Positions 17,384 through 36,928 of a stretch of 53,542 bases of DNA are shown here, one piece after another. The stretch is from contig JAGCNM010000026.1 in the NCBI GenBank assembly GCA_017645955.1, positions 1 through 53,542 of the forward strand, in the 5' to 3' direction. Under the pieces are notes generated by a model. The model did not search any database. It worked only from the letters and a program-made list of their open reading frames with translations, and was not told where the DNA came from. The first letter of the stretch is position 1; each line of letters starts with the position of its first letter. The stretch is from Candidatus Saccharimonadota bacterium (GTDB lineage: Bacteria > Patescibacteriota > Saccharimonadia > Saccharimonadales > Saccharimonadaceae). A program made the position numbers and the translations under genes.

Positions 17384-17656
17384 TTAGCGTACTTCAACGC
17401 GAATTCTCGGTAAAGATTTTCCCGAGAAATGACTCTTTTTAGTCTTCACAAACGTTACGACACCATCTTTAGCAGCATGAATCGTAAAATTACGTGACAT
17501 ATAAGTACCAGGACCAGCAATCTTAGTAGCACCAGTCTGACGTACTAAAACTTCACCGTTCTTAACCTTTTGGCCGCCAAAACGCTTAACGCCAAGGCGC
17601 TGACCAGCATTATTATGTACATTTTTGGCGGTACCGCCAGCTTTTACGTGTGACAT
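17384..17656 (-). CDS. rpmA: 50S ribosomal protein L27
   Basis: The 90-aa protein shows the L27 pattern: GGTAKNVHNNAGQRLGVKRFGGQ, then VLVRQTGATKIAGPG and a C-terminal FTIHAAKDGVVTF. L27 sits at the peptidyl-transferase centre. There is no cleavable N-terminal extension of the Firmicutes kind. The His/Lys-rich N-terminus differs from the usual AHKKG. rplU (L21) is not adjacent. The start overlaps the stop of the upstream methylase by 1 bp. Confidence 0.95.
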   Translation of the reverse strand: MSHVKAGGTAKNVHNNAGQRLGVKRFGGQKVKNGEVLVRQTGATKIAGPGTYMSRNFTIHAAKDGVVTFVKTKKSHFSGKSLPRIRVEVR

Positions 17657-18789
17657 TATTTCTTCCTTAAAATTATTATATCTCTCGCAACGATCTGATC
17701 GGGCCGATGATAAAGTAACCCCTCGCGCGATTTATTATTAACATTATACCCCAAATCTTTAATCTCGTCAAGAATATCTAGTCGTTCATAGGAATTATCT
17801 GGACGTAACCACGCAGGAACCGCAATTACGACTGGAGTATCTTTTTTTATCTGCCCAGCCAAATTCCTTAAAAATCCTAAAACGATACTACCGCACTCTT
17901 GTTTTTGTTCCCTTAGCTCTATGTCGCTCGGAATCCTTGAAAACGGCTTCCCAAGATACCCTTCACACGCCACCGCGTCAATCTTTTTTATCCATTTATA
18001 ATTCGTCGCATCACCAACATCTAAAACAAAGTTATTAAACTTGAAGTATTTTAAATTCTTCTCGCTGTATTCAACCATCCTTTCGCTTATATCCGTTCCA
18101 TACGCTTTATACCCCATCAAAAGCGCTTCTTGTAAAACCACTCCCGTACCACAAAACGGATCTAAAACCATAGAACCTTCATTTAACGGCCCACAAAGAT
18201 TAATTAAAACCTGCGCTAATTTCGGCGGTAACATTCCGACTTTCGCATCTCGTGCCGGTCTCGCCTGATCACGCTTCGCATAAGCGTCAATATCTTGCAC
18301 CCCAATCACACGATACCACTCATCCTCAACTTTAATAAGTTCAACTTTCTTCTCGTTCTTTCCTGATAAACCATTATGTAAAGACGTCGCCGTTGATAAA
18401 ACTGCATCCTTATTCTCGACTACCCGAACCGAACGCCCATGTCTCACTAAAATCTTTTTTAACTTCAAAGCCTCTATTGTTGCCGTTTTTTTGGATGCTC
18501 CTTTTGAATAATCACTCACCCCAATCGTAATCTTCCCTTCAGGTAGTTTCGCTAAGTAATCTAAAGGTTTTTCAATCAATTCGACAGCCAACTTAAGAAT
18601 CCCACCAAAACGCGATATATGGACGGGTGACGGAGCTGGGGGGTCCCCCGCCGCACGAAGGCGAAAGCCGAGTATGGTGGGGGAAACTGCGACGGCAGGA
18701 CCCGTCCAGAAATCAGCTTCCGGAAGCTGCGCGCTCAGTTCCGCTATTGATATTTCCGGCTGACGCCCTAAAACCGCTAAATATTTCAT
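17656..18789 (-). CDS. Trm11-type tRNA guanine-N2 methyltransferase-like protein
   Basis: The 377-aa protein has an N-terminal THUMP-like region and a C-terminal Rossmann methyltransferase: VLDPFCGTGVVLQEALLMG (SAM site), YGTDIS and a motif IV-like ACEGYLGKPF. This layout is that of archaeal/eukaryotic Trm11 and related N2-guanine tRNA methylases. Residues about 28-57 (Pro/Ala/Gly-rich, encoded by 18620-18708) look like an insertion into the THUMP-like part, because the flanks PEADF and ISRFGGILK would join naturally. The start overlaps the tyrS stop (ATGA). Confidence 0.78.
   Translation of the reverse strand: MKYLAVLGRQPEISIAELSAQLPEADFWTGPAVAVSPTILGFRLRAAGDPPAPSPVHISRFGGILKLAVELIEKPLDYLAKLPEGKITIGVSDYSKGASKKTATIEALKLKKILVRHGRSVRVVENKDAVLSTATSLHNGLSGKNEKKVELIKVEDEWYRVIGVQDIDAYAKRDQARPARDAKVGMLPPKLAQVLINLCGPLNEGSMVLDPFCGTGVVLQEALLMGYKAYGTDISERMVEYSEKNLKYFKFNNFVLDVGDATNYKWIKKIDAVACEGYLGKPFSRIPSDIELREQKQECGSIVLGFLRNLAGQIKKDTPVVIAVPAWLRPDNSYERLDILDEIKDLGYNVNNKSREGLLYHRPDQIVARDIIILRKK
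18620..18708. repeat. GC-rich palindromic insertion inside the methylase gene
   Basis: The element has 9-bp terminal inverted repeats TGGACGGGT/ACCCGTCCA. Inside, TCCCCCGCC pairs with GGTGGGGGA, and the centre has a GGC-GAAA-GCC hairpin with a GNRA loop, so the whole can fold as nested hairpins. It is visibly richer in G and C than the gene around it and adds about 30 residues in frame. Confidence 0.75.
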
Positions 18790-28630: not shown

Positions 28631-28705
28631 GGTCTCGTAGTATAGCGGTTAGTACATCGGGTTTTCATCCCGACAATGCGGGTTCGACTCCCGCCGAGAT
28701 CACCA
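28631..28705 (+). tRNA. tRNA-Glu (anticodon TTC)
   Basis: Acceptor GGTCTCG pairs with CGAGATC (one G-U), the anticodon stem TCGGG/CCCGA closes loop TTTTCAT (anticodon TTC) and CCA is encoded. The last 18 bases are repeated twice downstream. Confidence 0.95.
28688..28705 (+). repeat. tRNA-Glu 3'-end core, copy 1 (in the gene)
   Basis: The 18 bases CTCCCGCCGAGATCACCA are the T-stem/acceptor/CCA end of tRNA-Glu. A near-perfect hairpin (28701-28742) begins at the CCA and resembles a terminator. Confidence 0.9.
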
Positions 28706-28765
28706 ATAAAAAGAAGCCACTTGTGGCTTGTTTTTATTGGTGACGAGAAGGGAGTGACGAAGTCT

Positions 28766-28783
28766 CTCCCGCCGAGATCACCA
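28766..28783 (+). repeat. tRNA-Glu 3'-end core, copy 2
   Basis: The same 18 bases recur exactly, again followed by an A-rich/T-rich hairpin (AAGTCCC/GGGCCTT core) that looks like a terminator. No tRNA body precedes it. Confidence 0.9.
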
Positions 28784-28949
28784 GAAAAATAAAGAAGTCC
28801 CAAAGGGCCTTATTTGTTTTTCTGATACTTGGCGAGAATTGAACCCGCAGGGTTCGCTCGTGGTAGGAGCCGAGTAATAATCCAGAACTTGTTCTGGATT
28901 ATTCGAGGCGACGCCCCACGAATTGATTTGTGCTTTAGCACAAATCAAA

Positions 28950-28967
28950 CTCCCGCCGAGATCACCA
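28950..28967 (+). repeat. tRNA-Glu 3'-end core, copy 3
   Basis: A third exact copy, followed by GACTC/GAGTC hairpin and T-rich sequence. Between copies 2 and 3 lie three perfect hairpins: GAACCC/GGGTTC (about 28840), AATAATCCAGAAC/GTTCTGGATTATT (about 28877-28904) and TTGATTTGTGCT/AGCACAAATCAA (about 28923-28948). The 28706-29001 interval has no credible gene. Confidence 0.9.

Positions 28968-33762: not shown

Positions 33763-36908
<3,146 letters not shown>

Positions 36909-36928
<20 letters not shown>

Follow-up and report, generated by a model that had tools for sequence, protein, structure and literature searches.

What kind of sequence is the strong hairpin that lies, in frame, within a methylase gene of a Candidatus Saccharimonadota bacterium, and how could it have come to be there? 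The window, as we call the whole stretch of 53,542 nucleotides analysed here, contains at positions 18620–18708 an 89-nt nested hairpin, a self-complementary element of about 90 letters that we assign to family A. Its + strand folds with −52.7 kcal/mol (z −5.5; 0 of 200 shuffles were equally good), no other 100-nt stretch of the window is as stable, and its GC content is 67%, compared to a window mean of 39%. A preliminary description, made from sequence alone, had reported 9-bp inverted ends, an inner GGC-GAAA-GCC hairpin and an outlying base composition, all of which held, and had proposed a check of RNA structure, which when run gave the strong + strand fold.

The element and its host gene

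The element is built of three nested stems closed by a tip. Between P1, the outermost, and P2 lies an asymmetric internal loop (GA versus GCAGG), and P2 is separated from P3 by a G-rich loop. All coordinates refer to the + strand. The arms of P1, TGGACGGGT (18620–18628) and ACCCGTCCA (18700–18708), are exact over 9 bp and show covariation within the family. The conserved core is made up of two halves, GGGTGACG (18625–18632) and CGGCAGGACCC (18693–18703), in which A at 18630 faces G at 18695; this mismatch is exchanged between A.G and G.A within the family. The 5' side of P2 (18631–18636) is partnered by 18689–18694. A GGGGGG run (18638–18643) precedes the 5' side of P3, CCCCCGCC (18645–18652), whose partner is GGTGGGGG (18676–18683), and the tip hairpin GGC-GAAA-GCC (GGCGAAAGCC) occupies 18660–18669.

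The host gene (17656–18789, − strand) encodes a 377-aa TIGR01177-like (tRNA G10 methylase-like) methyltransferase, whose orthologues are present in 59 of 60 genus genomes. Its reading frame is open through the element, which has its core oriented antisense to the gene and encodes residues 28–57. The claim that about 30 residues had been added with the frame intact was thus confirmed. These residues were found in the window's own gene alone among 30 aligned orthologues, so that the case that would have refuted the preliminary description, conservation of the 30 residues in relatives at the protein level, does not apply. Its statement that a THUMP-like domain is interrupted was not supported, since Pfam, NCBIfam and PDB matches are restricted to the methyltransferase part, from about residue 167 onward. 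The only other carrier known is G003, in whose genome the same methylase loop holds a different family A copy with another inner sequence. Because the loop adjacent to the insert varies in length among orthologues, the empty site in the methylase is less exact than those in YchF or LigA described below.

In an AlphaFold2 model, the inserted residues form the portion of the N-terminal region that is predicted only weakly (pLDDT about 65–69, compared to 89.5 overall). The model also places a strand within the insert, at window positions 18658–18675 (residues 39–44), and a native strand appears to be absent there. By this prediction, the insert may have taken the place of native sequence.

Copies of family A and their reading frames

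Family A is dispersed, with some species carrying it and others lacking it. The genome of the window (G000) holds six clear copies, the others lying on contigs C1 (two), C3, C5 and C12. In a 36-genome genus set the carriers were the window's genome and 16 of the 35 others, with up to 14 copies per genome. Within a phylum sample, family A was found in at least 21 of 313 genera, with just 11 candidates scored per genome, and 86 distinct copies were gathered in the phylum. Two models were used, R1 being a sequence profile and R2 a profile with the correct pair columns. One weak match (C46:6604, E 0.77) was dropped as a family A copy, being topoisomerase sequence. When 84,980 species genomes were scanned with a pattern, at least 119 stretches were returned; since about 58 chance matches were estimated in the 257 Gb scanned, matches were counted only if P1 and P2 were both paired. 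Such matches came from Saccharibacteria, Roizmanbacteria, Uhrbacteria, Kerfeldbacteria, Omnitrophota and Deltaproteobacteria, and from single bins of other groups, some of which may reflect contamination. No structured family A copy was found in viral contigs.

The search of the whole genome and its relatives that the preliminary description had proposed thus revealed a repeat dispersed through the genome, the genus and the phylum. Its remark that no such family was known in Patescibacteria met no contrary description in the open-access literature that we searched, which excludes most subscription papers. As far as that literature shows, family A is new by sequence, without a comparison having been made to the sequences of Rickettsia palindromic elements (RPEs). 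The recurrence of the element also bears on the view that the insert is an ordinary variable protein loop or an assembly artefact. The length of the methylase loop does differ between orthologues; however, copies of this DNA element are also present in other genes, on both strands and in many independent genomes, and we regard this explanation as all but excluded.

A mechanical test for ORFs placed 39 of the 75 candidates (including C46, later discarded) in frame within long ORFs. The host genes of genic copies encode IleRS, LeuRS, PheT, TyrRS, PriA, TopA, exonuclease I, Obg, YchF, UvrB, MnmA, QueA, TypA and FemAB; they are mainly housekeeping genes, and in other bacteria many are essential. 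Genic copies lie in both orientations relative to the gene, five of the six frames are open and used, and no conserved peptide is shared among them. The core contains a TGA that closes one sense frame. Only two genic copies use that frame, those in QueA of G003 and G006, and both read TGG, with the partner changed from G to A as well. Since the core TGA is read as TGG wherever it is in frame, the copies appear to be translated and not spliced. From the open frames and the TGA to TGG change we infer that translation very probably turns the insert into a passenger peptide or spare loop.

An empty site is also seen in YchF: once 27 codons had been taken out, the remainder could be aligned end to end, across its 329 residues, with about 80 genomes, and the net length of the insert preserves the frame. 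These data bear on an intron-like or bypassed insert, one that is cut out of the transcript or that the ribosome passes over. Mitochondrial byp elements are GC-rich hairpins in essential genes that the ribosome skips, and the copies described here resemble them as GC-rich hairpins within essential genes. However, the frame in use is open in the genic copies, the QueA copies combine a TGA to TGG change with a change of the partner, and the net length in YchF keeps the frame, all of which makes this explanation very unlikely. In G004 and G006, an element begins at a MiaA-like start codon (G004:C10:17917, L053, ATGACGGGT; G006:C10:11847, L055, ATGGCGGGT), and the element itself seems to provide this codon.

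Arm pairing, further families and shared sites

Pairing was counted in the 86 copies, which had been taken without a pairing filter; counts from sequences pre-filtered for pairing were excluded as proof. At P1 positions 2–5 beyond GGGT/ACCC, 300 of 344 positions were Watson–Crick paired compared to 141.5 in shuffles, while G.T occurred 5 times compared to 45. G.U thus made up 5 of the 44 pairing failures, which is not above the one in six expected at random. Some copies had been found by R2, which rewards pairing and could have inflated these counts, and related copies are not independent. The mismatch in the internal loop was A/G in 69 copies, G/A in 13, G/G in two and A/A in two (p 1e-11 for the exchange). 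In two pairs of copies, each pair within one genome, the insides were identical and the arms were different yet still paired. We conclude that what is conserved is a hairpin at the DNA level, with a fixed core, a purine–purine mismatch and locus-specific arms that are almost perfectly Watson–Crick. Since the outer stem varies by locus but remains Watson–Crick with almost no G.T, pairing is kept at the level of DNA, and replication template switching is the likely means by which it is maintained. Published work credits template switching with homogenising the arms of inverted repeats and inverting spacers (PMC8604942), and with the capacity to make and maintain hairpins (PMC8794818).

A structured RNA, either a cis-regulatory or a processed element whose transcript fold is under selection, would be another way to account for a conserved hairpin. 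The strong + strand fold, the conserved internal loops and the position of several copies directly upstream of TATAAT-like sequences speak for it. However, there was no Rfam match at the gathering threshold or at E 10, copies occur in both orientations relative to genes, and G.U is not favoured among pairing failures, whereas RNA helices tolerate G.U. The lack of G.T enrichment among departures in P1 therefore argues against RNA selection, and we consider this alternative very unlikely.

The preliminary description had also pointed to two similar palindromes in the window, which was partly correct: both are real, but they belong to two other, unrelated families. The first (family B, 35248–35350, z −8.8) lies inside ligA (33763–35835, − strand), and the second (family C, 36786–36901, z −5.8) lies near the 5' end of a membrane-protein gene (35816–36928, − strand). 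Both families are multi-copy in the genome: within a family the cores are alike, whereas the long arms are particular to each locus. For family C, some eight further genome sites carry all or part of the core, with locus-specific arms. Elsewhere in the window, a series of strong hairpins (28640–28960) is found downstream of a tRNA (28631–28702), with repeated pieces like the tRNA 3' end (CCGCCGAGATCACCA).

LigA relatives lack residues 165–191, approximately. In gene orientation, the family B palindrome has a right arm that belongs to LigA itself and a left arm that is extra, an inverted copy. Among 13 species with a palindromic insert in LigA, the left arm resembles the right arm of its own gene far more closely than those of other species (mean score 17.4 for own and 7.4 for others, 15 filled sites, permutation p < 5e-5), and two non-palindromic inserts show no such match. 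This arm-tracking test was run on families other than A; in family A no more than 4–5 bp of the arm are variable. One possible origin of the arms, hinted at by LigA, is the inverted copying of a native flank. At this same site, G000 and its relative G010 differ in their cores, which are of family B in the former and family C-like in the latter, while the arms on either side are similar. The ligA of G067 (L372) is empty but for a small perfect palindrome at the insertion site, AACTTCGGA-gcc-TTCCGAAGTT, which could be an excision scar.

Insertion sites are shared in other genes too. In YchF, the residue concerned carries a longer insert in about a dozen genomes; two of these inserts proved to be a different palindrome (G477) and a low-complexity segment (G021). 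In QueA, ExoI, IleRS, Obg, UvrB and FemAB, the same or nearly the same residues are filled across species with different inner sequence, and shared sites in ExoI and Obg sometimes hold copies in opposite orientation. It is likely that a few tolerated protein loops are reused by several unrelated palindrome families. Inheritance of an insert followed by replacement of its inside remains possible and is not excluded. Two single loci may be added as observations: in YchF of G005 (L066), two element-like pieces are seemingly stacked at one site, and MnmA is occupied, at or near the loop that follows ATGHYA, by a family C-related element in G000:C40:22422 (L352) and by family A elsewhere (L230, L064).

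Movement and comparison with known systems

The best reading of these results, to which we give a probability of roughly 0.78, is that family A is a small mobile palindromic DNA element that acts in the manner of RPEs. Family A is mobile in the evolutionary sense; the mode of movement is the least supported step, and no copy was seen in the act of transposing. Searches for Y1 transposases and reverse transcriptases, which did not extend to DDE transposases, revealed no encoded mobiliser. Reverse transcriptase was absent in carriers G000, G003, G004, G025, G028, G032, G035 and G043, and its presence does not track the element, which speaks against mobilisation by a retroelement (group II intron, DGR or retron). 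Target-site duplications showed no excess over shuffled flanks, although short or degenerate ones could escape. SbcD, which together with SbcC cuts hairpins, was detected in 0 of 60 genomes of the same genus or order, with the control search positive in 13 of 14. Since SbcD is absent from non-carriers too, its absence may permit the element but does not explain it.

We infer that the active form of the mobile palindrome would be a folded single strand, on the lagging strand or in a cruciform. Template switching between the arms during replication would keep them complementary and could flip the inside. Cells without the hairpin nuclease SbcCD would tolerate the element, and strong selection in a gene-dense genome would spare only those insertions that are in frame and compatible with a loop. 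A bolder reading, which we offer only as a possibility, is that these are transposase-free mobile palindromes that spread and persist through replication template switching. The hairpin core would move and, on arrival, one target flank would be copied in inverted form to give locus-specific arms; the arms would later be homogenised, and insides flipped or swapped between families at one site, with all steps taking place in lineages without SbcCD.

Two known types of mobile element were compared to family A. REPs and the CGTC- and GTAG-tagged palindromes are likewise dispersed DNA hairpins with imperfect pairing and conserved unpaired bases, and are sometimes intragenic (PMC3733652). A REP-type element mobilised by a genome-encoded RAYT or IS200-IS605 Y1 transposase is nevertheless very unlikely. 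REPs are 20–40 bp hairpins with a terminal GTAG or CGTC tag, the GTAG types being linked to RAYT (PMC3733652), whereas family A measures 80–100 bp. In the 60-genome set, moreover, a Y1 transposase domain is encoded by ten relatives that lack the element but by none of the 18 carriers. A classical MITE, on whose fixed terminal inverted repeats a DDE transposase would act, is also improbable on evidence that does not cover DDE transposases. Bacterial MITEs (Correia/NEMIS, ERIC, RUP; PMC2229807) are also small and non-autonomous with inverted ends, and the size and non-coding nature of family A would be compatible with them. MITEs, however, have fixed terminal repeats and usually a target duplication; the arms of family A vary by locus with compensation, and no excess of target-site duplications was found.

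Palindromes that code for protein are also known from mitochondria of Nematomorpha, where the arms evolve in concert and template switching has been proposed (PMC6649704). The inverted repeats within protein genes and the concerted arms are common to both; in Nematomorpha, both arms encode conserved protein and there is no dispersed core repeat.

The preliminary description had named the RPEs as a precedent, and this is supported, as similar behaviour in a separate family. RPEs measure 105–146 bp and occur both between genes and in frame within conserved protein genes (Ogata 2000; PMC2229807), and they are said to lose repeat identity over time (PMC6649704). Both are dispersed palindromes of about 100 bp, in frame in conserved genes and absent from orthologues, with a translated passenger peptide (only inferred here) and an unknown mover. 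So far, descriptions of in-frame palindromes in essential genes have come mainly from Rickettsia and Wolbachia. The present data show them to be widespread among reduced bacteria, most of them uncultured, with several unrelated families sharing protein loops. This makes testable the movement of DNA without an obvious enzyme, template switching in coding DNA and the origin of new protein segments, and it warns that such segments should be annotated as insertions, not domains. Family A differs from RPEs in its organisms, in its fixed GA-mismatch core, in its paired, locus-specific arms, and in sharing loops and spanning several phyla.
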